A DNA stretch of 64,000 bases from Bryum argenteum (Eukaryota; Streptophyta; Bryopsida; Bryales; Bryaceae), in the NCBI GenBank assembly GCA_037043015.1, contig CM073328.1:731409-795408 (forward strand), read 5' to 3'. Below, piece after piece: positions 319 through 64,000 of this stretch. The notes under the pieces were generated by a model. It was not told where the DNA came from. It worked only from the letters and a program-made list of their open reading frames with translations, and did not search any database. The translations under genes and the position numbers were made by a program. Every line of letters starts with the position of its first letter. The stretch's first letter is position 1.

Positions 319-1123
319 ATGTCGTCACGGCTATATTTCCATGTGGAGTTGAAGGAGGGTGAGACGACGATTGTGTCGTGGAAGAAGTTGGTGCGTGATG
401 ATGAAATTGCAAAAGGATTGTATCACGCTATGGAGCAAATGCCTTGCAAACCCCTCTTCAAGAGCACTCTTGTGCCTCAACCAATAGTGAGGAAGATGCA
501 CAACAAGTTAAGGTCAACTGCTTTAGCTCAGTTCTAGAAAAGATCGAACGTATGTACTACGGTGTAGATAGCAATGATAGCGATAATGAGGGTGAAGGTG
601 GAAGGTTGGGTGGAGATCAATACGATAGTGATGATTCATTCATTGATGACGAGGGGTTAGATGAGTATTTCGGAGCCAGCAATAGAAAGAACAAACATTA
701 TGGGTTTTTCATCAATAAAGGCCATTTGAGATTGAAATTGAAATTGGACAACCCACGAAGCGGAAGTTGGAGGCATTATCTAAGGTATCAAAAGAGGCAA
801 AAGTTATGGATGAGGCAACCACCAACCTTGATGGATGCAACCCATCTCAAGAAGGAGACGAGGCCAATCGGTCTTTAGTAGCAAGGATTTTGAGCAAGGG
901 AAAAAAATGCACCATGCCAAAGGCGTCTAAAGCGCCTAAGGCACCGAAGATCCCTAAGGTCCGCAAAGAGCCAAAGGTGCCGAAGGCGCCAAAGAAACTG
1001 ATAGTGGGAGGAGTAACAGATAAGCCCAAGGAATGTGCGGACATATCGCCATGTCTCAACAAAAACCTCCATGCATACTACTTGACAATCTCTCTCAAAA
1101 CTCCAATCATTGCGTTGCCCTAA
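319..1123 (+). pseudogene. Ubinuclein (HIRA-complex subunit)-like pseudogene, N-terminal part
   Basis: Ubinucleins are subunits of the HIRA complex, which deposits histone H3.3. The first frame opens with an ETTIVSWKKL stretch typical of plant ubinuclein N-termini. A second frame (about 500-720) carries a Ser/Asp/Glu-rich stretch and then YDSDDSFIDDEGLDEYF followed by HYGFFINKG, which matches the Hpc2-related (HRD) core. A third frame (about 722-1120) continues with QPTKRK and a Lys/Pro-rich tail of PKAPK-like repeats. Reading through needs frame changes near 440-500 and near 720. There are no visible introns in a region where plant ubinuclein genes normally have them, which suggests a decayed retrocopy, although an ancient fragment is also possible. 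A second Lys/Pro-rich stretch lies at about 1140-1250. The C-terminal part of the protein is not present. Confidence 0.68.
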
Positions 1124-5890: not shown

Positions 5891-8034
5891 CTAGTCGTCT
5901 TGTGAGTTGCCGTGGGACGTTGCCGAGGTGAAGGACAAGTAGAAGCTGCTGGACATGGAGGACGGTGGAATGAGAGCGGCGTTGAAGGCGGCCTCGCTGT
6001 AGGTAGGAGGGACGGGACGATCCGGCAGCGGCGGCATGGGGAGCTGCAGATTCTCCAGCATGCGCAGCACGGCCGTCATTGACGGCCGGTAAAATACCTG
6101 CAGCATAGTTACCATGGCCGGTTCAAAACATAGTTTAGAACATTCGTCTGTTGGATTAGTGGCCTCATAGATAATCTTATTATGGAATTTATTCTGGAAG
6201 GGATTCCAAGGTTTGACCCTTTTCAGCTGGGGGGCCTCTGACAGGCGCGGACGAATGTTTATGCATTCGACATTCGCACACTGTATCAGAACCTTCCCGG
6301 CTGCAAAGGGTTGATTCTGTGAGGTTTGTATGGGAAGTATTATAGATACTATGCAAAAAATATACGAATTATTGTGACTATGACCTGCGGATGCGCGCAC
6401 AGGAGCGCCAGGATCACGAACCGCTCCATGTCGAGCTCGGGCTCCGCGCCCAGCCGCGGGTCCACGATCGCGGCCCAGCGTCCCTCCTTCATCAGGCGCC
6501 ACGCCCAGTCGATGAGCAACTCCCCTGTCTCCGCGTCCGGCGCCATGGCTTTCCGCCCGCTGATCAGCTCCAGCAGCACAATCCCAAAGCTGTACACATC
6601 ACTACGGTCCGTGAGCTGGTTGTACATGGCGCACTCTGGCGCGACGTACCCGAAGCTGCCCGCCGCGCGCGTGGTCACGTGCGACATCCCCTCGGGCGTA
6701 AATTTCACCAAGCCGAAATCCGCCACCATAGCGTTGAAATCCTCGTCGAGCAAGATGTTGCTCGGCTTCACATCGCGGTGTAGGATTTGCACTTGCGCGC
6801 CCGCGTGCAGGTACTGCAAGCCCCTTGCTGTGTCCGTCGCGATCTTGTGCCGCTGCGGCCAAGTCAGACCCGGCGACGAGAATAGATGATCATGCAAGCT
6901 GCCATTCTTTACGTAATCCAGCACGATGATGCGCTGGTGGCCTGAAAACCCCTCCTCCACGAGCTTGGCAATGCAACACCCACGAAGCGCATTGAGATTT
7001 TTGTGCCGCACCGATGCGAGCGCTTGCACTTCGTGCAGGAAGCCCGCGTCGCCCTCCGCACTGCAGTCCTTGAAGCGCTTACAAGCCACTTCGTCGCCGT
7101 TACGGAGAATGCCTTTGTACACGTTTCCGAAGCCGCCTTGGCCGAGAATCATCTCCATGTCGAAGTTCCGGGTGGCGGCTCGAATCTCCTCGATGCTGTA
7201 CCATGTCAACCCGCCACCCAGCATGCTTTTCATCTGGTGCTCGAACTCGTCGTTCCGATTACGCTTTCGAATGCGACGGAGGGAAATGAACACGATCCAC
7301 GCACAGAATGAGCAGACGAAAATGGCCGCGGCGCCGATGACAAGGTACAGCCACCACTGCCGTTCCGACGACTTGGTCACCGACAAGAGATCCCACAGGC
7401 ATACCAATGTGGTGGCGTCCAAGGGGCCGGCGTTCAGGACCTCCGCGGCGGTGTACATGTCCGTATACTCCAGGCACAAGTTGCTGTCGCTGCCATCGCT
7501 GGAGCGCAAGCTGTTGGCCACGAGCGAGATCGCCTTGGTGCAAGCGGCGCATGCAGCGGACTTGGCGTTGCCATTGGCCAGGACGCCGTTGTTGCAAGTC
7601 TGGAGCGACGACGCCACGCCTGCAGTGGTCACGACGCTGCGAAAATCCTCCCGCGTTGCGATACCTTGGCACGACCTGTTGTTGGTCATCGACAATCCAC
7701 ACAGGCTCGTGACGTTCTCGACTCGGAAGTAGCGCTCCACGGCTGCGAGGCACGATTGCGCGTCCTCGGGCGGGGGCAGGAAGTTCCCTGTTTGCTTGAG
7801 GTACACCGAGAGCACAACGTCCACGCCATGGGTGAGGGTCAGACAGCGCTTGTCTTGCGCGCCCACCGCGCGCACTTGCTCCGCCACGAGGGGGTACTCA
7901 TCCAGCACAGTAAAATTCAGTGGACATAGCTCCGCTCGCGCTCCCGTCGTCGCCGCCGCCACCACAACTAATACCCACCATAGCCACATCGCTGATTCTC
8001 CCTCCACGAACCATCTTCCCATTCGAACCAACAA
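5891..8034 (-). CDS. SPARK-domain receptor-like protein kinase (At1g11050 type)
   Basis: Two exons, 8034-6385 and 6097-5891, join at CCGCAG/gtcata..ctgcag/GTATTT and give about 618 residues. The most likely start is the internal Met at 7989, which places a signal peptide (hydrophobic WLWWVLVVVAAA, then GARA) at the N-terminus. Counting from 8034: a Cys-rich extracellular SPARK-type domain occupies about 37-220 (CPLNF start, CxxCT near 161-166), a membrane helix about 227-252, and the kinase about 295 to the end. The kinase has G-loop GQGGFGNV (298-305), Lys in VACK (319), HRD (419-421), DFG (439-441) and CAPE-like VAPE. The second exon supplies the end of the kinase (FYRPSMTAVLRMLE) and a Ser-rich tail. 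It should be an active serine/threonine kinase at the plasma membrane; the ligand is unknown. GC content is higher than in the surroundings. Confidence 0.9.
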
Positions 8035-8044
8035 GCAAATTTAA

Positions 8045-17133: not shown

Positions 17134-20104
17134 ATGGCCCCGAAGCAAAAATCTGGAGAGGAGCTGCAAGGCCTTGGGGCTGGAACTGCTTCGAGTAGCA
17201 GTGTGCTCCAGCAATCAAATCTTGGAGACTTTTCGCACACCGATGACGAGCTTTGGAAGAGTAATCCTGACGAGGGACGAGACTCAAGTACGTGAAGCAG
17301 TGCTCCTTTTACATGATGAATTGTAACATTGTTTGTGTTGGTTGCATGAGTGGAGTGGAGAAGGATGGTATTTTCACCACGTGAAATGACTTGTTTCAAA
17401 ATTTTTGTGCAACTTGTTAGAATGAGACTTTCTTTGTGGAAATTCTAATGAAGAATTTTATGGAAATTTCATACTTTCCACTACACGAGATGTTGATTAG
17501 TGTTACATGCACTACTTGAGCTGTTGATTAGTGTTACATGCACTACTTGAGCTGTTGATTAGTGTTACATGCACTACTTGAGCTGTTGATTAGTGTTACA
17601 TGCACTAATTTGTATTAAGATGTTAGGAGTTTTTATTATTTATTATTTATCAACATTTTTACCCACCATATTGGTCACAATGAGGATCTTTTAATAGTAT
17701 TGGAATCAATAGTCTTGGAAGATTTTTATTGAAACAAGTACAAACTTGTAACATTCTGAAATCTTAGAATAACTCAACACTAGTCAATGACTCTTGTGTT
17801 ATATTGACGTTTTCATGTTGAAGTTACCATCCATGGATGTAGTTTCTTTGAGAGATGGCTGGTGACGATTGTGTTCCGAACCCAATTTTCTTGTGTTTTG
17901 GTTCTTTTTCTAAATGAATTTTAATGTTAGTCGAACACCTCATTTCTATCTAGCCTTACTAAAGTAGACTCAAATCATAACTTCAATTTTTGCAAGATGT
18001 TACATACATCAACAACTCATAAAAGTTTCGTATGACTCAATGAAGTCTTCATATCAAAACTTCTGGATTTCAGAGGATGTAATCTTAACCCATTCTTGCA
18101 AGTGTATTTTATTTTGGTCGGGATCGATTTACATGTCTACAATTAAGGTCAATAGTGTGCATCAATAAATCACAATCAATGATACCTATGTATTTCCATT
18201 GTATTTTAGTACATATGAAAATGGGTATCTTTATGTATCAACGAGGAAGATTTGAATTGGAGGGGAGATCACTGAGGGTTGTATCGATATTAAAGCTTGA
18301 TCAAAATTTTTAACCAGTCATTGTGTGCACATACAACATAGTGTGTTGAATGGAAGTCATTGAATTTTAGTGTGTTCAGTGTACTTTGTGTTGTATTTTG
18401 AATCATTCCAAGAGTTACAAAACTTCAAGTTCTGACTAGATTGTTGGAGATTGATTGTTTAAGATTTGGGCTCATATGTAAAGAGATCTTCAAAAGCTGA
18501 TTCGCAATGGATTTGATGAAAACTTGAGCAACTAAAGATGTTCACTTCTTCCAATTGCTTTTTCTATTGTGCAGGAAAACATGTTGTTGTGACGGAAAAG
18601 CTTCGTGAATATTTGAAGATTTCTGAATGTGTGAAGCTTTTAAAGGAGTGTCTCGATAGAGTACAAGCTATGCCATCTCCGAAATTCAACAATGAGCAAT
18701 GTGCATACCTACTTGAGAAACTTAAGACTACCTTTGAGAGGGCAATGATACTTGTAGTAGGGTGCCAATTCCAACCAATGAGAATGCTTTTGAATGTAGA
18801 CATGGAAAGGTGGGCACATGCATTCAAGCTTCTTGTTGTGCTAGGAAAGCAAGTTGAGGATTTCTTCCAAGAGTGCTCCAAGGATGCATGGATCCAATCT
18901 GCGGTGACTCAAGCACATGTGGAAGAGTATGTTTCATCAATAGGTTTCAACTTAGAGTTATTCAAATCAGCCTATTCAACGGAGGGAGATGTCACTCAAA
19001 CTTTAACCATGGAGGAAGTGGCCAAATTGAATGCAAATGAAGTGGAGATTGTGGAGAAGATGGAACTGATTGATGCAATGACCTTACAAAAGAGATTTGA
19101 GGTTCAACAAACATTGAATGTGGAAGATAAGAAGTTGGCCATGTACCTAATGTCAAAATCTATTGACGGTACGACGACTTTAACTTTAGATGGACACGAT
19201 TCTGAGTTGTATGAAGGGGTGAAGAATGTGGACGGAAAGGAAGTGCGAATTGGGAGAGGAGCATCCGGTACAGTATACATGGTGTTTTGGTTTGGCATCC
19301 TCGCAGCAAAGAAAAGATTTTATAGACCACCTGATTAAAGCTTCATGACAGAAGCGGGCATCTTGTCTCAACTACATCATCCAAACATCATATCTATGTT
19401 TTGTTATGGCATGAACAAAAAAGAGTGTTCAATTGTAATGGAATTAATGGATGGTAGTCTTACTGATCTATTGGGAAGTAGAAAAGGAGTATCTGGCGAG
19501 TTTCTCCCGTTTTCAAATCTCCAAGAATTGGGCCTAATGCTTCAAGTTGGTGAAGCTGTTGAGTACTTGCATCGCAAGGAAATTGTGCATAGGGATCTAA
19601 AGTCTTCATCTATTCTTGTTAAGAAGATGAAAGTATTGGAAATGGAGGATGAAATCGTAAAATTGAAGGTGGCAAAGTTTGGACTTTCACAGAGAAAGGA
19701 ATCAAGCATGACGCAATCAATTGTGACTCGCAATGTTGGTACTAGCAGGTGGACGCCGCCAGAAAGGATACTTCAGAGAAATCATGAAGAGCCATGGAGA
19801 AATTATGAAGATTCTGGTGAGCGCTCTCGTATGTTCTTATATTACAACTTTAAGGGCGACATCTACAACCTTGGGATGGTCTTTCTAGAGATATTGACAG
19901 GGGAAGTTCCATTTCAAGGAATTGGATCAACATCTATTGTGCGGAACATGATCTTGAAGGGCAAGCGTCCCATGCTACCTCGTCATTGTTCCGCAGGGCT
20001 AGCGAACTTAATCCAAAGATGTTGGAGCCAAATTCCCGAGGAGCGACCATGCATAAGTGATGTTTGTTTGGAGTTGAAATATCTTAAGTACTCATTATTG
20101 ATTG
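17134..20104 (+). pseudogene. MLKL-like kinase module 1: leader exon plus helical-bundle/pseudokinase exon, one internal stop
   Basis: Exon 1 (17134-17287, MAPKQKSGEELQGL.., ends A/gtacgt, phase 1) joins exon 2 (18575-20104, after ttgtgcag). Exon 2 first encodes a predominantly helical region (about 18590-19150) with an NNEQCAYLLEKLK motif that resembles HeLo/MCAfunc-type bundles of plant MLKL-like proteins; this is an inference. A kinase domain follows: G-loop GRGASGTV, AAKK, HRDLKS, LGMVFLEILTGEVPF and a C-lobe ending CLELKYLKYS. HRDLKSSS lacks the usual Asn, and DFG is replaced by KFG, so it should be catalytically dead. An in-frame TAA at 19336-19338 sits between beta-3 and helix C. The exon ends ATTG/gtaagt in phase 1, so more exons follow. 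It may be a pseudogene, a truncated product or an assembly error. Confidence 0.65.
17491..17609. repeat. 31-bp tandem repeat, four copies, in the first intron
   Basis: TGTTGATTAGTGTTACATGC begins at 17491, 17522, 17553 and 17584. Copies are essentially identical, so the array is recent. It lies inside the intron of the kinase-type gene. Confidence 0.9.
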
Positions 20105-20132
20105 GTAAGTCATGACAAAACCACCTATCTAC

Positions 20133-21419: not shown

Positions 21420-21674
21420 GTAAGCCCAAACTACTCTTACACAAATTAATGATATGAAAATTTGTCTTTCTTGTGCCGCCTATGCTGATATTGGTGACGT
21501 TTATGTTGACTGCGTCATTGCTTCTGCATGTGTAAATAGAGTAATTTGGAACATTCGTTGTAATTCTTTAAGCTTGTGGAAGTTATTCGAATGTATGAAA
21601 TTATTGCATTTCTTCTTTCCTCGTTGGGTAAAGGAAGATATTTACCATTTCAAATTGTATTCAATATTGTGCAG

Positions 21675-23204
21675 AAGAAGATATTATGAATATGCTTATG
21701 GAACAATATAAGCTTACAAAGAGTTGTGTGGAGGGTATTCCGAAGAGGGTGTTCGAAAGGCAACAACTTCCAAAATTTAACATTGAGCAATGTAGATACC
21801 TTGTTGAAAAGCTTGTGGCTACTTGTGAGAGTGCAAGAATATTTATGGAGATATTTCGAGATCAACCGCTTAAAAAGATTTCAGTTATGGAGATGGGAAG
21901 GTGGGCAGAAACATTCAGATTTTTGTTGCTGTTGGGGACCCAAGTGGAGGTTTTTGTGCAGGAGTGTAGGAAGAATGCATGGATACGAGCAGCAGTGGCA
22001 TTAGGAACTTGTGAAGGAGTATGTTTCGGCAGTAGGGTTTAACCTTGAAGTGTGCAAAGTTGTCCTTTGCAAGCAAGAAGGTGGAAGTTATACTCTGGAG
22101 AAATTGAGCAAATTAAACGCAATTGAAGTAGAAAGTGTGAATAAGAAGGCTATCATTGATGCAAAAACCTTACGCAAGGCAATTGAGGAATGGAACACAG
22201 GAGATGCCGACAAAGATGCCCAAGAAGTAGAGTTGGGCAATTATCTTATGTTCAAAATTGGAGGGGAGGCAGGAAATCCAAGGATTCTTCATCTTCAATA
22301 TCAAGATAGATCCATTGCAATGTCAAAATTCTTGAAATTGGTGAAGAATGTGACTATAGAACGGAGCAATTAGGTAAAGGTGCCTCTGCTAGAGTATACA
22401 AGAAGACGTAGTGTGGTGTACCTGCTGTAATGAAAACATTTGAGGGTGCAAATAACCTAATATTCTTGCGGGAAGTGCAGATCTTGTCGCAACTCCATCA
22501 TCCCCATATTACATCCATCTTTTGTTGTACCAAGGACAACATTGATTGTTCATTTACAACGGAGTTAATGGATGAGAGCCTCTTTGATATGTTGCGAAGT
22601 AGAAGAGGGGAAGATGGCAATTTTCATCCTTTTTCCTTGTTGGATAGCATCAACCTCATGCTTCAAGTTGGGAGTGGTATTGAGTATCTGCATGATTGCA
22701 AGAAGATTGCGCACAGAGATTTGAAGTCTGCAAATGTTCTCGTAAAGAAGGTAGAAGCATTGGGTTCAAAGATTGTGTACTTTCAAGTGAAATTGGTGGA
22801 CTTTGGATGGTCAAAAACAAAAGAGACAAGTACTGCATCGTCAAATATGAGCTACAATGTAGGCACTTCTAAGTGGATGGCCCCAGAAGTCATGAAGGAA
22901 AGCTTTGGTCACTTGCCAAAGTTCAACAAATTTAAAGGTGACATATACAAGGCTGACATATATAGCTTTGGTATGGTTTGCTATGAGATCTTGACTGGAG
23001 AAGTACCATTTCTTGAATGGAATAAGGTTATTAGAGAGGGGGTATCAGATGGCAGTAAACGTCCTAGGTTACTAGACTACATATATTGGATTCCACAGTT
23101 TAAAGAGTTGATCGAGAGATGTTGGAGCCATTCGCCTTCGAAACGCCCCTCTATGAAGGAGGTTTGTTTGGAGTTGAAGTACTTCATATATTCAATATTG
23201 ACAA
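21675..23204 (+). pseudogene. MLKL-like kinase module 2, frameshifted
   Basis: One exon after ttgtgcag, entered in phase 1 and ending ACAA/gtaagt in phase 1. It is 1530 nt, exactly the length of the kinase exon of module 1. The helical N-region (FNIEQCRYLVEKL, RWAETFRFLLLLG) changes frame near 22005 and returns to the original frame near 22355. The G-loop region (LGKGASARVYKKT) is followed by an in-frame TAG at 22409-22411. From 22430 the kinase is open with HRDLKSANV, VDFGWS, APEVM and YSFGMVCYEILTGEVPF, so the catalytic residues HRD, Asn and DFG are kept. As sequenced it cannot give a full protein. The mutations compensate in length, so sequencing or assembly error should be considered. Confidence 0.65.
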
Positions 23205-23960
23205 GTAAGTGACCTCTACCTAAAAACAATTGAAGCCTCGTATTTGATTGAATAGTAATCAACCTATGACTTTTAAAACATTTGTTTAAGTTGTTTTTGG
23301 GTAGATTATGCTAAATTTCTTTAAGGATGATTGTATGTAGCATTTGACCATTCAACATTTGAATTTATGCCAACTAAGGAGATAAGTGGACTTCCTGATT
23401 TTGTTTTTTTTTTTGAAGGTGAAAAAGTTCAAGAAAGTCCTAATTTTTGTGTGGAGAGAAAGGCACATGAGGATTGTAGGTGTGTGGGGAACATTTTACA
23501 GTTGTTCAAGTTTAGGAGTTCCTAAATAATTTAGACATCATATGTGAAACATTTCACGTAATGCATGTTGGATAATTTAGTACAATACACACCATTAGAA
23601 AACTCAATGGAGATTATAAGATTGAGTTGTTAGTGTTATATGTATGCATTGTGCCCACAGTGAAAGATGAGTATGTTTAATTTGTGCGTTTTGTTTGTCT
23701 ACACATATTGCAATATTTTTCACCTTAAATAAAAGTTGAATGCATTACATGTAACATTTATATTAGTCAGAGCAAATTGTTTATTCAAGCAAATGTTGAT
23801 TAGGAGAGCATTGTCATCCAAAAGCTACATGAAACATAATTTGGGAATATTTGAAATTCATTTAGTGTGTGTTTTTTTTTTTTCTAAATTTTAAATTTTG
23901 ATTAATCTGTTTTATCATTTTTTCATCCTGGAGACTTCATACCACAATAACATCAACATA
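23205..23960. other. Intergenic or intron, nothing recognised
   Basis: If the gene continues after the donor at 23205, its next exon is not obvious. AT-rich sequence with homopolymer runs. Confidence 0.4.
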
Positions 23961-37800: not shown

Positions 37801-40800
37801 AAGGTTAGTAACAGGGAGTTCTCTACTTTTTCCATATTTATCGCTTACTTGCAATGCTATAATTTATAGTACAAAGTTCCTCAAATAAAAGAGTAGTATT
37901 AATCAAAATATGACGAAAATATATCAGTAGCAAATAAATGACAAAAGTACTAGTGAGATTTGGAATCTATAAAAAAGGTACGATCTGATGTCCAATATAT
38001 ATTTGAATGCAACCTTTGTAGTTCTTTAACATCTTGACTAATTGTAATCTAAAGTGTTGATTAGATAGTTAAACCGATAGAGAATTACTAATGAGAGATG
38101 ATATAAATTTTTTAATACCGTGGAAATAGGCATACAAGATGAAGAAATACCTCACCAAAACAATACACAATCTTAAGAAAATAAATAGTACATGTAATAT
38201 TTACAGGAAGAAATAGGTGTCATTACATCGAAGACATAACCATTTACCATATGATACATAGATATGTAAGAAGTGAGTATAAAAGCGAGCAGAATTTATA
38301 GTATTCCATGTAACACTCCTATATGTAATTTACCATTTTTCACCAAGGTAGTAGTATATTAGTTGAGTTCTCAGAATAAATTATTAGATTTTGTACATTC
38401 ATGTTGAAGTTGAATTAGTGTCATGGGCCAAGGCCTCGTTGATAAGCTCGGATGTTCACTCGCTATTAATTTTATAAATAGAACTTCGGCAGTAGAGCTA
38501 AAGTATAGCCTCGGCAGTAGAGCTAAAGTATAGCCTCGGCAGTTGAGCCAAGAGATTAGTATATAAGGGACTCTTATTCATTGTAAACCTAAGTCTTGGA
38601 TCAATATATTTCTTTTGTAGTTTTTGCTTGTTTTGACAGCTAGACTCTTACAATTAGTTAGGACATTTGTAGTTTATAAAATAAGATTAAAATAAATAAT
38701 ATTGATGGGATTCAATAGGTACTGTATGCTTCACTTTTCGTACTCATATAGTGACCATAAATAATGTAGAATATGCATGAAACCATAAATCTTGTTTTGA
38801 CATAGTTTTACATTGGTTTTTTCCTCCTCTATCAGCACCTGCTCGTACCTCATCTGCTCGATGTGATGCATACGGAGAAGAACGTTTCAGCTTCATTACT
38901 GAAAACATTCTCGAATTGTAAAGGGACAAAGTCCGATTCACTTGCATTACGCAAATCTTTACAACAATTCAATGTACTGCAACGATTTCACCCGGTAGAA
39001 GATGGAGTGGATGAGAAGGGCCTAACAAGGTGGACATATACGCCAGCCGATTGGATTTGGAAGGCTCAAGAGTACGATAATATCATCCACATGATATCAT
39101 CAACCCATACTCCTTTTGGCTATGGATCAAGCTTCCGCCACAAGTTCAACAATCGTAAGCTAGTAGGTTTCAAAACCCATGATTATCACAATTTGCTCCA
39201 TGATTTACTACCTATTGCCGTTAGAGGTACTCTAACACTCGGTATTCGAAGTATTGTATACCGGTTATCGGCCCTTTTCCGTTGGGTGTGCTCGAAAGAA
39301 ATTAAGATATCGGATTGTCCGAAGATGAAGAAGGAAGCGGCAGAGATATTGTGTGAAATGGAAATACATTTACCTATTTCTATTTTTGACATACAAGTTC
39401 ACAATATCTTGCGTATAGTAGAAGAAGTAGAACTTGCAGGCCCAGTTTCTATAAGATGGATGTATCACATTGAGCGCTACCTTAAAGTATTAAAAGACTT
39501 TGTCAGACAGCGAGCACGACCAGAAGGGTTGATCGCCGAAGGATATATATGTGCAGAATCTATGTTCCATGTAAATGAATATACTCAAAGGTTGGATAGG
39601 TTTGCAACCCGATTACAAAAACCAACGGAGGAGGATATACGATCAAAAGGGATAGTATTGCCAAAGTTATCATCTCCTAAACCTTTGGATCCCATTTTCA
39701 GGGAACAAGCCCATAGGTTTTTATTACTGAATGCTCCCTGCATGGAACCTTGGAGGGAGAGATATGACTTAGAGTATGGGGACTTGGTACACAAACCTTC
39801 ATTCAAGGATTGGGTCCAAGGTACGGTTCGGGATGACATATCTAAAAATAAGGCAGTGTCCCAAATGGTCTTAGATATTATACTTGGGCCTGGAGACAAG
39901 GGCCATTTCTACAGTATGTGTTGGGCTTACGGAAGTCACTATCGCATAATGGCAAGGGATTTAACCAAAAAAACTACGTTTGACAGTGGGGTCTCGGTTC
40001 TATACGACATTGGAGGGGAGAAAATAGAGTTTTATGGCTACATAGACAACATTGTGAAGTTAAACTTTGATAGCTTTGAATCAGTTTTGTTCCGGTGCCA
40101 ATTCTGGGATTCTATCATTAGGCAACATGGCTCAAATGCCACAGTATTAGAAGATGAATGTGGTTTCGACCGCGTTAAGGCAGGGGAATTTTTAAGGTCA
40201 TCAGGTGTTGAAGATGATCCCTTCATTTTTCCAAAGGACGTCAATCAGTTGTTTTACGTAGATGACCCTATGAACCAAGGCTGGAAGTTAGCTATTAAAG
40301 TGAAACCGAGATCAAATCTCATAGTATACAAAAGGCCAGAGTTGTTGCCGACAGCATCGGAAACAGGGACAGTAAACACTTTACCTTTCCAAGGCAATTT
40401 ACCAGGACCCATCCCGGGCGAAGGAGGTGCACAATTGTTTCTTCCGGATGCAACATTATCGGAGTTGTTGACTATTGAAGCTGATGATGATGCCGGCGAA
40501 GGAGTGGGCGTCTACGAAGAAGATGACGAAAGGAACACTATCCCCGAGGACATTACTGTAGAGGAATATTACTCCGATAACGAAGGAACACCGGCTGCCT
40601 TCTTAGATGACCCAGAGGACTTCGAGCAATTTGCTAGCGAAGATGAATTACTAGACATCGAAAGTGATGGCGAAATGGAGAACGACACACCACTGCATCG
40701 TATGGGTACTGCAGCTTCCGTGTCGACTCAGGTACACTATCAGAAACTCACAAAAATTCCATAGGCTTCTAGTCTCTACGAAAATGTTTAATTTCTACGT

Positions 40801-51573: not shown

Positions 51574-51901
51574 AACAAAACAAAACTACCTCCTCTAATA
51601 TATATATATATATATATAGTGCAAGGCCATTTTTTTCCCCTTAAAATTTCATATATTACCTGCGAACCTGCGTTCAGTCCTAAACGAGGAACAAAATCAT
51701 ATTGAATGAAGCGACTGAATAGTGTGCAGTGAACCATTGGAAGAGTGGTTTGAACAGTGATATATCAATATAAAACCTGGCAATTATGAGACTACCGCCA
51801 GTTCTCTGTGACGAGGCCCAGAATTTGTCAGACGCCATTTGCATTTCGATTGAGATTTCAGGGTTTCACAGTTTCTGCCGGCGGTCCGACTGGTGAAATA
51901 C

Positions 51902-53946
51902 ATGCAGAGTGGCTCCGGCAGGCACAATCGCCTTGTGCGACCGCTGTTGCGCGTGGTAGAATTGTCCAGCCACGGACCGAGCTCTTCCTCAAGGGTCCGC
52001 AGCGTCGCGCCTTCGGTCACGGACTCCTATCGTCGTGCGCCGGATCGAGTGTTGATGCAACACGGAGAGCACCTGCGCCAGCCCGCGCCGGACATGGAGC
52101 ATCAGGTATGCATGAGTTCAGCACATAATGGCAGTTAGTTGCGGATCCTGTTCTCCTTGTGACTCTCGTTGAAGTCGCGCCTGCACAGATCTCCTATCAC
52201 ATGTGAACCAAGTCTGACAGGACTTTGTCTAGTGACTGGATTGCATGCCTGACTGTTTCTAATGATCTAGAGTTTGTAATCTCTGGGTAGGTCTTCCTAA
52301 CCCGTGATCTGATCCGGGCGACTTACTTGTGATTCAACTCTGGCCAGGTCGAGTCGCTAGAAGTATCCGCAGCTGAGCTGCTCGCAATTGCCCGTGACGG
52401 TGGAGAGCTTTCAGTGGACAGCATCGACGATGCCCATGTGCTTGAAGCCCAGGGTTTTGAGATCAAGGGCTCCTCGAGCAATGAGGATGGCTCACAGACC
52501 TATACCCTTCAGGTCAGAGGAGATCAGGCTAGCGATGGGAGACCCGAGGGAGGAAGAGCGCGTTCACCAACACCGGTTGAGGTGGAATTGGTGTCGGATG
52601 ATGAGGACGACGATGACACCATGAAGGGTGTTTACGCCGAGTTTCCGCCATCAGGTCGTCGCGATTCTTTTCTTCTTGTATGATGTTTTACTTTGATTCC
52701 TCAACTGTTGTCGCGGACGTGCTTGAGAATATTTTGAGATCATTATACTTGTGGCCATGGCGGGCTGCGGGATTTTGTACAATTGTATGATAGTTATCAT
52801 GACCTTTTTTTTTTTTTGCCCTCAATGTGCTTTCCTGGTGTCAACAGGGAGCCGATTAGTGTTGCCTAACAAAGATTTTGAGCCGTTCTCGGCTTGTGCA
52901 GATGACGAGCTAGTGAGAGGTAGGGGATATGTCTTAAGCAGTTCCGATGACAAAATTGGTTCGCTAAAGGTTATCGAGAAGCCGAAGGGCAAGGAGCCCA
53001 AGGAGACTGTCCAGACGGTATTTGTTACTGTTGGTTTCGTACCCGGTGTTACTAGGTAATTATTCTGAGTTCCTGAATCTTTTACTGCAGACTTGGAATG
53101 CATTGTCTTGTGCAAACTATTCGGATTTGGATATGATGCTATACATTTTAGGAATTGGGTTTTATTTTTAATTTGAACCCCCTTTTTTGAACAAAGTTTT
53201 TGAGGATTCATTTAAATGATGTTCTGGAATGTTCTATTCGCTTGCACAGGCCGAAGGCTGGTAATGACGCGAAGGTCCATCTGGTGCTAAAGGAGGCCAT
53301 GTTTGGTGTAAAGAAGTGCATCAACGAAATCGATTTGCGTGGCCATTTTGTTCACAAGTTGGAAATTGAAGTCGTTCCAGCCGAGGATTGGATTTCGTCA
53401 TCTAGCCTTTCCACTGTCAGGCCAGGCGTTAACTCGGACCCTGTGCAGCGCAGCCTAACTCAAGGGAGCACCGCCGCTCTTAGTGTGGGCGCAGCTCCAA
53501 GTTTTCAAGTCAATGCAACCTCCAGCCAAACAACTCAATGCAACTCAACAAAGTGTGGGTGGCTACCAGCCTATGCGGTGCAGCTGGACAAATCAGTGAC
53601 CTGGGTGTGGAAAATGAATACATGGAAAAATGGTGAACCCTTTGATGCGAAGTCCACAAGGAAGAATTACTTCAAACTTCCGGAGCTTCCATTTCCAATT
53701 CCCTCTTATATTAACTTCCCTGACCTATGTGACAGTTTTGATGCGACATGGATTGTTCCCAAGCATAAGGCTGACGATTTGAATAACAATTTCAAATGGA
53801 ATGGTCTAGTGCGCGTCCACACTACCATCGTGCGGCCATTTATCCGACGTCGTTTTGGAGGTATACCTGTGACGATCTACCCGAAATCTGAGATTGAACC
53901 TCCAACTGAGATTAGGTTCAAAAATCTTGAGATGAGAGAAATCTGA
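51902..53946 (+). CDS. Unknown protein sharing its N-terminal module with the CHAT-PITH gene
   Basis: Exons 51902-52105, 52348-52654, 52848-53055 and 53250-53946 join in matching phases (0, 1, 2) to about 471 aa. Exon 1 is Arg/Ser-rich. Exon 2 encodes a short helix-like segment (SAAELLAIARDG), DSIDDAHVLEAQGFEIKGSSSNEDGS, a TLQVRGDQASDGRPEG linker and VELVSDDED, an acidic, SUMO-interacting-like motif. This exon is closely similar to exon 2 of the minus-strand gene ending at 59177. Exons 3-4 encode a unique part of about 300 aa with probable beta strands (VRGRGYVLSSSDD, AKVHLVLKEAMFGVKKC, HKLEIEVVPAEDW), a Ser/Thr-rich linker and a C-terminal domain rich in aromatic residues (WVWKMNTWKNGEPFD, FKWNGLVRVHTTIVRPF). 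I do not recognise this part. No signal peptide or membrane segment is visible. The gene is intact. Confidence 0.7.
52137..52620 (+). repeat. Inverted segmental duplication, arm 1
   Basis: This stretch (intron 1 end plus exon 2) matches 63520-64000 in inverted orientation. It starts AGTTGCGGATC.TGTTCTCC and includes CACATGTGAACCAA.TCTGACAGG and GATCTGATCCGGGCGACTTACTTGTG in the intron. Introns are almost as similar as exons, which means a fairly recent event or gene conversion. Confidence 0.9.
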
Positions 53947-59149: not shown

Positions 59150-59182
59150 TGAAGCCTAAACCCTAAACCCTAAATCCTAAAC
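59150..59182 (-). repeat. Short telomere-type tract (TTTAGGG)3 at the end of the CHAT-PITH gene
   Basis: Minus-strand reading is GTTTAGGATTTAGGGTTTAGGGTTTAGGC. The TAG stop codon of the gene (59177-59179) is part of the first GTTTAGG unit, so the tract begins at the stop codon and forms the start of the 3' UTR. Confidence 0.85.
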
Positions 59183-62100
59183 CGGGTTACCAATAAAAAC
59201 GAGTTCTTGAAGCTGGGTTGAATCGCAACCTTCTTGATTGTCTTCAATAAACAGAGTCACACTTCTCACTTGCTGAAACGTGACCTGTTCGAGTGGAATG
59301 GGGTTCCCCTTGAGGTTCTCAAGCGACACAACCACCGTGTCCGTAGCTGGATCTTTAGTAGCGTTGTCGAAATCCATGTCTGTTTTGTTGACAAAAAGCT
59401 TCACTGATCTTGGACCGTTTTCTGGAGGACCTGTGATCATCAAGGAATGGAGCTTAACCACCACCCCGAAGGACACAGTGAGAAGTAGCTGCGGACCATC
59501 AGCAGCGCTCTCCAGAAATAAAGCACTATCCTCTTTAAACTCGTCCTTGAGAGCGTTTGCAAAGGTGCGGACTGGATTCTCATTCAGGCATTGCACAGAA
59601 TGCCACTCAATAAAAGGAGCTAGATCACCCCGACCACTTGGTAGCTGAGCTTGGGTGCCAGTAGGAGTCGTATCCTGTCGTTGTGGAACCAACACGAATT
59701 CCCCACCCGAACCTAAGTATCTGACAGAAAAAGCTCTTCTGAAACTTTCTTCATAGAGTCGTTTCTCGTCATCGGAATGACGAGGCAGTTTGACCCCTGG
59801 ATATCCAATACATGTAAAAGCTGCCCAGTCCAAGACCACCCACTTCGGTTCGTTGGTTGGTATTTCGTGGGGACGATTGGGCCGTGGCTCTCTCCGTTTC
59901 TTCATCATGAATACTGTCGACTTTTGCATGGCATGTGCCAGATCGTCTCCATCATGCAGATGTTTGTACAACTGTTGCATGAATTCTAGACAAAAAGTTT
60001 CATGAACATTCCACATGCTGAGGACGCAGCTTGGTACTCCAGCTCTCACCAGTCCTCTCGCAAAACCTAGTACTCCTTCTCCTGAAAGCCACAGACATGA
60101 ATAAGATGTTGCTATTCAGTTTGAATTATATATGTTATGCATATTATGCTCACATGAGACGTAGAGGTCTGAGTATTATAAAGATTCGCAGGTTCAGGCA
60201 CGTTCACAGATACCTCCAAGTATACCGAGGCCTGACTGACAAGCACTAAGCACCACGGAGCGAGCACCTAGTGATCCAGCCGTGGTGATTTCATCAGGAG
60301 TCAATCGATGCATTTCTTTGTCACCGAGCAGCAAGGAGCCCTGAGGATACTCAGAAGAGACTTCGCCATGTACAGCAAAATGAGCCCAAGATGCTGTAGC
60401 TGCATGTTCCAACACTCTATCCTTCATGGGCTTCTCTGAGGGATCGAGGGGCTTCTGTAAAGAATCGAGTACCTCGATGGCATTTCGCCCACACATTTCT
60501 CTGACTGATGCAATCTCCTCATGTGCCTTCCGTAAATCTTTCCATTTAGGTTTAGGATATCCGGTTACTCTTCCAACAAGTAATTCTGGTCCAGTAGGAA
60601 TACAGAGCTGTAGTGCCGCAAGCCATTCAGAGGGACACAAGATCATCAGTGCACAAGGAGAGTTAGTGACACTGGAACGGGGCCCATATATTCGACCTGC
60701 GTATAGGCCTTCAAATCCTAAGTAAGGGACACTATCTACTGGGGTGCGCTATATATTCGATTCTAGAAGCTAATGTACTGCTCGCATCTCAAACACAGAA
60801 GGAACCGTGATATATTTCATAAATCAGAAGGTTTTCTTATCCACCTTACTTGCAGAATGCGAATGTCGTATCTAAGGTTTACATTCTAAATCACAGGTGA
60901 GTAAGGATTCGCACCTTTTCGTAGTAAAGATGTTGACAATGGCGAGTGAGCCACATCGATGGAGACACACAAATGGGATACCTTTCAATAAGGCATTTCC
61001 CATCTTCTCCGACTTTATCGCGTAACGCTGAAAAAGGGACAACAGATAAATCCTGCGCCACCCCCAAATTCAAGATACTTGCATGATTTGCGAAAATAAC
61101 CATTCCAATAAGTCTGACAAATCAATAGAAGCACCAATAGTTCAAGAAAGTTACATGACTGAAAAGTTTGATTGACGCAGTATGAGAACTGTGGTATACA
61201 CTAATCAAGCTCACCAGTGTGGTGACTGACAGCTTATGGTTGACCAGCAAACCAGTGTATGAGCTGTAGAATCATACCTCATGGGGCACAAATACAATAG
61301 TGAGGTCTGGACGCCTCTCAAACTGGTAGCGGAGATATTCTCTTACAGCAGCTGGAAGGAGGACATCGTGTAATTTTACAAAGAGCCGATTGATTTCTGC
61401 TGTTTTCTGCTAGTATTTGCAATTCAAAGCACCATGGTTTGTAAGATGGACCGTCCCAAACACATGGAAAAGAACTAGCGAGACACTTGACGTTTGAGTG
61501 TAATTTGAGATTTCAACAAAATGAGTGATAAGTGTACCTAGTTACTTACCTCGCAAATCGCCTTTCTACTTCTTTTTGACTGAGCCTCAGAAGCTAGTCT
61601 GTGGATTCGAGCAACTGTACCAGTTATCGAAAAGTTGGTAATTTTCGTCCGCAATGTATTCATAGCATGCAGTGAGGACGGAATTGAACCCTTTGAGTTC
61701 TCATTCTGCAAACCTTGAACGAGGTTTTCCATCTCAAGTTTTGCAAGCCTTTGGTCTTCGTCCTCGAACTTAACAGTGTATTGAGTAACCAAATCGATGG
61801 TGCCATTCTCTCCATCAACAATGAATACAAGTAAACGATCTGTACCCGTCATTGTGTAGACGATGAACAGCATCTTTGATACGTGGTGGGGAAACTTTTC
61901 ACCCCTGAAAAGGTAATCCTTGGCCCAGTCATCGTTTTCTTGAAACAGAGTCTCCGAAAATTCCTTGGAACGTGGAGAAGGGTGGGTGGGAACTCTGTCA
62001 GGAGGGGTGCTGGTTGGTGCTGGTGGATCAAGAAGTTTCGCGAGTAGCCTTCCCTTTGAGCGCTCTGCCCATAGCAGCGATTTCCACATGTATCGAATTT

Positions 62101-63790
62101 CTTTTTCAAGATCAATCTCTGTTTTCGGTTGCTTAAGCTTGTGCCTCGTGGCTAACAGATAGTAAGTGTACGTAAGAGTTTCATACGCATGCTTGTGCAT
62201 CTCTTGAAACCTGAGAGCATGCTCCTCACTCATGCTGGCCAAGTGTCTTAGCTTCTTTTCGAGAACTCCAATAACCTCTTTAAAGAGCACCTCCGCCATT
62301 TCATACTCGTTGATTGCAGGTTTTGAAGCAAAGGAAGCCATATATAACCGATGATACACAGCGTCCATATCCTGATCAACACTTGAATACAGTAATTTCG
62401 AAAGGCGAACAGCCTCGTTGAAGGACTCCTTCATTTCCCTATCATGTCCCCCAATTTTATCTAAGCATGCGATTTTATCAAGATTTGCGATTAACAGCAG
62501 ATGCCTATCCCTTGTCTCAATAGGCCTTGTAGGGACGATACTCTGAAAGTCCCCTAAACATTTCCTGGAGTTTTCCAAAAGACGATTCCAATCAACACGA
62601 TCATCACGCTTGGGAACTTCACACCTTTTCAAGATGTACTCATTATACCAGGAAGCTACAGGATCCGGGCCTGGACCGCTGGATGATTGGCGCCGGTCAA
62701 TGCATTTCTGCATGACATTCGATAACTTCAGGGGGAGATTGGACGCCGACAAACTATAATCGCCTTCATAAAATGTTCGGGTAATATTCGATTGCCGGGT
62801 TAGAATTTGAACAATATCCGTCTCAAACCTATCATTCACACTCCTATCACGGTCTTCACTTGTTAAGTGCCAGCCTTCCGTGAGGGTCTCCAAAGCAGCT
62901 TCACTAGACCAATACTGTCTTTGCAGCCGAGCTTGATGCAGTAAAATTGCCAGAAAAAGGCTATGGCACGGACATAAGATGGACACTCTATGACCACGTT
63001 CGTCAAAAGCAGGGTTTAACTGATTACCGGATATCAAAGGATCTTCACACTGGCATTTCTCGATTTTTGCGTAACGTCTCGCATCTCCCCAAAGCTCAAG
63101 AGCACGCTTGTAATTATCAAAACTCTCGCACAAGGAAGCACATATCCAGTATTTCATAATAAGCCTACTCCCGCTCATGTTGCGATCTGCACGGGCCGTT
63201 ATTGATCCAAAATAAATGCAAGGCACAAAATAGCCAGCTTATTGTTGCTACCATGAGGAGACTTAATAAGGTACTCATTTCCAACATAAAACGAAACCGC
63301 AAAAATTACAAAAACGACACTCAAACCAGCAGCTAGCCAGCAATGGCTATACGGGGACCAGATAAAATTATAAGCACGACCATGAAAGCAGCTGCGTAGG
63401 AATCAAAGTACCGCTAGAACGTGCAAAAATCCGATACCGACCAGACGCCCGAGACTTGTTGTCCACGACCGAAATGACTGACAACCGCCCATCGGCACAC
63501 AACTTCAAGATATTCATGACTTCCTCATCATCCGACACCAATTCCACGTCAGCCGCCTCAGCCGGTGTTAGTGGACGCGCTCTTTCTCCCTCAGGTCTCC
63601 CATCGCTGGCCTGATCTCCTCTGACCTGAAGGATAAAGGTCTCTGAGCCATCCTCATTGCTCGAGGAGCCCTTGATCTCGAAACCCTGGGCTTCAAGCGC
63701 ATGTGCATCGTCGATGCTGTTCACTGAAAACTCTCGAAACTTACGCGCAATTTCGAGCAGCTTAGCTGCCGATACATCTCCCAAATCGAC
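59177..63790 (-). CDS. CHAT-domain (caspase-like) protease with TPR-like region and C-terminal PITH domain; 5' end outside window
   Basis: Exons 63790-63412, 63186-61550, 61409-61278, 61052-60915, 60607-60214 and 60081-59177 join in consistent phases to about 1,194 aa; exon 1 lies beyond 64000. The first visible exon holds the module shared with the 52-kb gene, ending VELVSDDEE, plus a further segment. Exon 63186-61550 is helical and TPR-like (YKRALELWGDARRYA.., MAEVLFKEVIGVLEKK). The CHAT domain spans 61409 to about 59900: IVFVPHEDLSVVPFSAL, catalytic His in HFAVHGE (60368-60370), Cys in LSACQSG (60239-60241), then GEGVLGFARGLVRAG..VLSMWNV and WAAFTCIG. After a linker, a PITH domain closes the protein (59626-59180): FIEWHSVQCLNE, LFLESAADGPQLLLTVSF, VKLHSLMITGP, VKLFVNK..MDF, VTLFIEDNQ and FIGNPV. 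PITH domains bind the 26S proteasome in TXNL1. The frame is intact. The predicted protein is a cytosolic or nuclear cysteine protease. Confidence 0.88.
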
Positions 63791-64000
63791 CTGGCAATTA
63801 TTGAATCACAAGTAAGTCGCCCGGATCAGATCACTGATTAGAAAGGCCTACCCAGAGATTACATACTCTAGATCGTTATGAACAGTCGGGCAATCCAGTC
63901 ACTCGACAAAGTCCTGTCAGAATTGGTTCACATGTGAAAGGACGATCTGTTCACGCACGACTTCCACGAGAGTTCACAAGGAGAACACGATCCGCAACTA
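63520..64000 (-). repeat. Inverted segmental duplication, arm 2
   Basis: The inverted partner of 52137-52620, covering the first visible exon of the CHAT-PITH gene and most of its preceding intron. It continues past the window end, so exon 1 may be duplicated too. Confidence 0.9.

Follow-up and report, generated by a model that had tools for sequence, protein, structure and literature searches.

A CHAT protease gene of the moss Bryum argenteum carries a C-terminal PITH domain that may stem from a reverse-transcribed mRNA

The moss Bryum argenteum carries, on the minus strand of contig CM073328.1 (assembly GCA_037043015.1; here C8), a gene in which a CHAT protease domain is joined to a C-terminal PITH domain. 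The gene was read at 59177..63790 of a 64,000-nucleotide stretch (the window; contig positions 731,409 to 795,408, the window end being C8:795408), and positions are given in window coordinates unless a contig is named. In our analysis, the sequence itself bears out the joining of CHAT and PITH. We posit with moderate confidence that it is a chimeric retrogene, formed when a CHAT protease gene received a reverse-transcribed copy of a PITH mRNA, and that the PITH domain has been repurposed as a binding module. CHAT proteases have been studied mainly in bacteria and fungi, and no such protease from a plant, bearing a domain copied from a proteasome-cofactor gene, turned up in the searches made here.

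An earlier note on this DNA, made from the letters alone, had proposed six exons with agreeing phases. This structure stands, as the six minus-strand exons have GT/AG borders and together give 1230 stop-free codons. They are listed below with the stop codon; comparisons are with the closest relative of the CHAT region, protein KC19_11G119400 (P0001) of the moss Ceratodon purpureus.

63442..63790, minus strand: exon 1, the 'N-module', phase-open with the next exon; its place in the mature protein is uncertain
61550..63186, minus strand: exon 2, the large exon, with the N-terminal region and then the pre-CHAT region; 545 full open codons
61278..61406, minus strand: exon 3, start of CHAT, phase 0 at both ends (TIVFVPHE, against TLVFIPHE in Ceratodon)
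60915..61052, minus strand: exon 4, CHAT (DLSVVPFSALRDK...), phase 0 at both ends, matching Ceratodon DLGLVPFGALYEK
60214..60607, minus strand: exon 5, with the dyad His and Cys; 60607 is the preferred start, 60748 that of the earlier note
59177..60081, minus strand: exon 6, the last exon, with the end of CHAT, the linker, PITH and the stop; open to the stop, with no intron needed
59179-59177, minus strand: stop codon TAG

The further claim of one intact protein holds in part: the frame is open, but exon 5 more likely begins at 60607 (CTACAG|CTC, same phase) than at 60748, and the first ATG exon lies past the window. The start at 60607 is preferred because it drops 47 residues that are not present in the Ceratodon relative, improves the Ceratodon match to 293.9 bits (277.8 with the start at 60748), and brings the main part of that match into one stretch (260.7 bits) instead of two (51.9 and 194.7 bits). 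Reading on past the window gives a short first exon with an ATG (MQHGEHLRQPAPDMEHQ) at C8:795489-795439, so that the gene is incomplete within the window; the frame of an alternative earlier ATG meets a stop. The whole corrected protein, including the MQHGEHLRQPAPDMEHQ exon, has 1200 aa, and the five exons after the N-module hold 1067 open codons in the corrected model.

Both domains scored far above their cut-offs when the spliced protein was searched against Pfam, a check that the earlier note had suggested. CHAT (PF12770) was matched at residues 673-1022 of the 1230-residue model (E 9e-34, 117.7 bits, cut-off 24; 118.2 bits once exon 5 is corrected) and PITH (PF06201) at residues 1075-1229 (E 4.7e-37, 127.7 bits, cut-off 23.7). 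Both residues of the CHAT dyad, which we take to be catalytic, are present as had been claimed, with the His codon at 60370-60368 (FAVHGE) and the Cys codon at 60241-60239 (LSACQSG); the two motifs line up with HG and SAC in the Ceratodon protein and in protein P0008. The PITH fold is supported by Foldseek (1xoy, 1.7e-15), and the fused PITH matches At3g04780 in sequence (E 3e-41). In a structure model of the last exon (15 sequences; mean predicted local distance difference test score, pLDDT, of 67) the CHAT fragment is mixed, and the PITH part has pLDDT 50-72 in blocks 161 to 200 and 75-93 in blocks 201 to 300; the structure alignment took in 14 of the 27 proteins found. Since the last exon is open from the end of CHAT through PITH, including a stop-free linker of 49 codons, the two domains are joined without any splice junction. 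When the bases of the 152-codon PITH stretch were shuffled, one version in 2000 remained open.

The Ceratodon protein is the best CHAT relative (E 2.7e-69, 37% identity, 62% of the searched region), its alignment beginning at about residue 410 of the 1230-residue model. The remaining 22 of the 23 matches of that search (7990 candidates scored) had E 1.9e-9 or worse, and the one named organism among them is bacterial. Three matches only, at E 1.5 or worse, were obtained for CHAT against PDB sequences, and none of the families in the NCBIfam and PADLOC models matched the domain. In the genome itself (258.8 Mb, 25 contigs; only first-look candidates were scored, 7 for PITH and 11 for CHAT, and all counts are lower bounds) at least 12 CHAT matches were found from the 11 candidates, which we grouped into at least seven loci, namely one each on C10, C6, C4 and C7, two on C3, and the fusion locus. 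With these six further loci, and with a TPR-CHAT protease reported from a fungus (PMC12881547), the earlier statement that CHAT proteases are known mainly from bacteria proves too narrow. No PITH domain was found at the six other loci by the genome PITH search (7 candidates) or in the frames that follow CHAT there (one frame each, about 300-400 codons); for a PITH domain behind an intron, this negative result rests on the genome search. At the C4 locus the frame stops seven residues past the aligned CHAT end. As separate observations, locus L027 (C10:3795500-3805000) is a single 2068-aa open frame with two CHAT domains, while L022 and L023 (C3, about 552 kb and 604 kb, in opposite orientation) and L024 (C7, 13-21 kb, near the contig end) are closely similar CHAT loci, with one in-frame stop each in the CHAT matches of L022 and L024.

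The origin of the fused PITH domain is suggested by a stand-alone PITH gene on contig C7. At least four PITH matches were found in the genome from the 7 candidates: the fusion, a single C7 exon, and a pair of C9 exons that probably belong to one gene. As modelled, the C7 gene has eight exons, seven of them encoding ADLVDCIEW...KIAIIGSTVETTNMKDLKKISETEG, and a first exon (MATTATPVSGTPASTPVQLPLGQ) upstream that was the sole candidate of a pattern scan. The parts of the fusion gene that bear on its relation to the C7 gene are as follows.

59180..59635, minus strand: PITH domain, intronless, related to the stand-alone PITH gene on C7
59636..59668, minus strand: end of the linker, resembling the N-terminus of the stand-alone PITH protein, TPTGTQAQLPS(GR) against TPASTPVQLPL(GQ)
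59155..59183, minus strand: telomere-like repeat (TTTAGGG type), which includes a two-copy 14-base repeat and supplies the stop codon

The fused PITH domain is complete in one frame and matches the C7 gene, without introns, from TPTGTQAQLPSGRGDL to IGNPV; it spans the first six introns of that gene and ends one residue into its last exon. The genome thus holds, as a retrogene calls for, an intronless copy together with an intron-containing relative. The similarity may extend into the linker, the end of which matches the N-terminus of the C7 protein at a score that none of 2000 linker shuffles attained, in a stretch of 13 residues that is rich in T, P and Q. The stop falls in the telomere-like repeat, at the point where the C7 gene goes on with a tail. 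A processed mRNA copy would be the simplest account of these features. The copy is probably too old (dS >1) for a poly-A tract or a target-site duplication, and its 3' end is the telomere-like repeat.

Fused PITH and C7 gene are identical at 85 of 149 residues (57%). Nonsynonymous divergence (dN) between them is 0.28-0.31 and synonymous divergence (dS) 1.07-1.41 by three methods, a ratio of about 0.2-0.3, with no stop. In a protein tree of four database PITH proteins (one from Adiantum), At3g04780, TXNL1, the fusion and the C7 gene, the branch of the fusion measured 0.75 and that of the C7 gene 0.10, at node support of 33 to 69. These divergence and branch-length figures suggest, as a rough estimate, that the copy is old and that selection on the fused branch is relaxed but present.

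The earlier note knew of no described CHAT–PITH fusion, and as far as searched this holds. When proteins of comparable overall length were queried with the PITH region, none of 397 candidates matched at E<=1e-3, which means that no second CHAT–PITH fusion emerged at this sensitivity; a search with PITH by itself gave 48 candidates, of which four proved to be stand-alone relatives. None of the PITH pattern matches in bacterial (102) or viral (43) contigs was confirmed, and no phage record matched the last exon. No literature with both a CHAT and a PITH domain was found, nor any on CHAT domains with moss and TPR or with green plants, in a search that did not extend to subscription journals or public domain-architecture databases.

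In TXNL1 and PITHD1, PITH is the proteasome-binding domain (PMC12700817, PMC12700798, PMC12324443). TXNL1 is reported to contact PSMD4 through E136 and D162, PSMD1 through R234 and PSMD14 through its tail, and its proteasome binding was severely impaired by R234D, E136R, D162R and PSMD14-interface mutations (PMC12700798). The fusion keeps one of the three charged contacts, with Q for E136, D at D162 and E for R234. The same three positions are E, D and K in five stand-alone PITH proteins (two from named plants) and in the C7 gene, and all seven other PITH sequences compared have K or R at the R234 position. Further changes in the fusion are A for D160, P for E163 and a G inserted beside D162. 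The Rpn11-binding C-terminal tail is absent, the stop following GNPV, and one regular expression run on the minus strand down to 53950 found no tail-like exon past the stop. The fusion deviates at 19 of the 73 columns in which the four database proteins are identical, against 2 to 6 of 56 to 60 when each of these four is tested in the same way; once At3g04780 and TXNL1 are included, the counts are 8 of 41 for the fusion, 14 of 47 for TXNL1 and 0 to 4 of 33 to 37 for the rest. Because several TXNL1-type contacts are lost, stable docking on the 19S particle would not be expected, and a proteasome tether is doubtful for this protein. The proposal of the earlier note that the protease is placed on the proteasome is thereby weakened, with D162 and N139 kept on the other side.

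The 5' end is a mosaic and the least certain part of the gene. The N-module, which the earlier note had described as shared, does have a second copy, but as part of a segmental duplication that includes non-coding DNA: 63522-64000 on the minus strand corresponds to 52136-52607 on the plus strand (419 of 483 columns identical).

52136..52607, plus strand: second copy of the 5' segment (the 'N-module' exon and the non-coding DNA preceding it), 87% identical over 483 columns

Over the 89 codons of the N-module, dN and dS are 0.14 and 0.13 (NG86) or 0.15 and 0.10 (YN00), a ratio of about 1, and therefore purifying selection is not seen there. Its donor (CTG|GTCGGT) looks weak. For these reasons, the duplication with its non-coding DNA among them, the N-module may lie outside the mature protein. 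From two candidates, a genome search placed it at these two sites and at no other. A site on C9 (L029) matches the first codons of the large exon together with the intron before them, at 89% identity over 222 columns. A second gene in the window (51900-53946, plus strand) has the same duplicated 5' segment, and its 251-aa frame at 53191-53943 had no Pfam match. A protein search also found three copies of the start of the large exon on C9 (L029-L031, at 6.14, 6.23 and 6.31 Mb), with the intron before the large exon copied as well at L029.

TPR-like helices, which had been read into the N-terminal region, were not supported. At E 0.1, Pfam matched no family other than CHAT and PITH in the 1230-residue protein and no TPR in the 545-aa large exon, the structure model of which (2 sequences) had pLDDT 37 and was unusable; a diverged TPR repeat could escape such data. 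In the Ceratodon relative, Pfam gave three TPR matches, each of them weak and under its cut-offs (best E 4.5e-4). The N-terminal region is probably helical.

We posit that a plant CHAT (caspase/separase-like) cysteine protease gene received a PITH domain close to its former stop, within the last exon, and that this domain was reverse-transcribed from the mRNA of the stand-alone PITH gene of the same plant. The product, if the gene is expressed, would comprise about 1050 to 1200 residues, with an N-terminal region, CHAT with its His/Cys dyad, and a C-terminal PITH domain. By analogy with TPR-CHAT proteins, the N-terminal region could restrain the putative protease or sense a partner, and PITH could act as a protein-binding module that chooses the partner or substrate. 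Several points weigh against this reading. Fusion and C7 gene are not established as sisters, given the node support of 33 to 69, and dS above 1 is near saturation. Retroposition is argued from the absence of introns, and regulation by the N-terminal region from analogy, with TPR undetected and the model unusable. TXNL1 itself has more unique changes than the fusion, and the docking contacts were judged against those of TXNL1. The tail of the C7 protein does not end in the His that binds zinc in TXNL1 (PMC12700798), and therefore docking in plants may differ from that in humans.

Other points on that side favour a possible but unlikely alternative, in which PITH holds the CHAT protease on the 19S regulatory particle, close to where substrates enter, and the protease works there as a processing enzyme that can be switched on. 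PITH binds the proteasome in both TXNL1 and PITHD1, the fold of the fused copy was matched by Foldseek, and D162 and N139 are retained, so that weak docking is possible; TXNL1 with D162 changed to R is reported to no longer pull down proteasomes. TXNL1 is also described as binding resting proteasomes at low affinity without tail contact (PMC12700817). Set against this are the E at the R234 position, the Q at the E136 position and the missing tail, with TXNL1 binding severely impaired by mutation at each of these interfaces (PMC12700798), although position 136 was changed to R in that assay and E136 to Q is milder. It is decidedly improbable that the gene encodes an integrated decoy, in which a docking-impaired PITH copy lures factors aimed at proteasome cofactors and, when disturbed, releases the activity of a CHAT death protease. 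The decoy concept exists for plant immune receptors. The PITH part is a copy, related to a host gene, that has kept its fold, lost some native contacts and evolved faster, and a CHAT domain like the one to which it is joined serves in a cell-death system of a fungus (PMC12881547); however, Pfam found no NLR-like switch domain, and we know of no pathogen factor that targets PITH. Ranked just below this is a chimera that is decaying or has no function, a gene of intact appearance that goes unused in surroundings rich in repeats. The mosaic of duplicated pieces at the 5' end, an N-module with dN close to dS, the weak-looking donor and the long protein branch of the PITH part would fit such a gene, whereas the 1067 open codons after the N-module, the conserved dyad and the pairwise PITH ratio of 0.2-0.3, though taken at high dS, argue against it. 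That two separate transcripts mimic one gene is barely conceivable, with CHAT and PITH in one open exon and a 49-codon stop-free linker between them.

The chimeric retrogene that we favour suggests that an RNA copy can hand a protease a new binding part. The PITH relative and the other CHAT genes of the same genome provide ready controls.

The window holds further features. Two neighbouring kinase-like genes on the plus strand (18520-20115 and 21632-23212) have N-terminal regions that are similar by eye, and Pkinase was matched by Pfam in the gene at 21632-23212. A single open frame of 563 aa at 6349-8040 (minus strand) is a receptor-like kinase with a SPARK domain. The frame at 38806-40764 (plus strand) has DUF4218 and DUF4216 and is presumably of transposon type, and a match to the HUN/ubinuclein domain lies at 405-875 (plus strand).

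Known proteins resemble the fusion in one half or the other. TPR-CHAT proteases are described from bacteria, where RNA activates a CRISPR-linked enzyme (PMC9729208, PMC10028731), and from a fungus, where the protease activates a gasdermin (PMC12881547). Like the fusion, Csx29 of Craspase and the fungal gasdermin activator have CHAT preceded by another region; PITH is not described for them in the accessible portions of these sources, and the fusion, unlike them, has no detectable TPR. In the Ceratodon protein, likewise, a dyad-bearing CHAT domain with a similar end (GFPGVKLP) comes after an N-terminal region, but the protein is 1684 aa long, has no PITH by Pfam and ends 32 residues past GFPGVKLP. 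Stand-alone plant PITH proteins (At3g04780, PDB 1xoy; the C7 gene) share the PITH domain with no partner domain; introns interrupt the C7 gene, which also has a C-terminal tail and K at the R234 position. TXNL1 resembles the fusion in PITH, by sequence and by fold, and differs in its thioredoxin domain and in a tail that reaches Rpn11, while PITHD1 has a PITH domain without thioreductase activity and a tail predicted to reach Rpn11 (PMC12700798).

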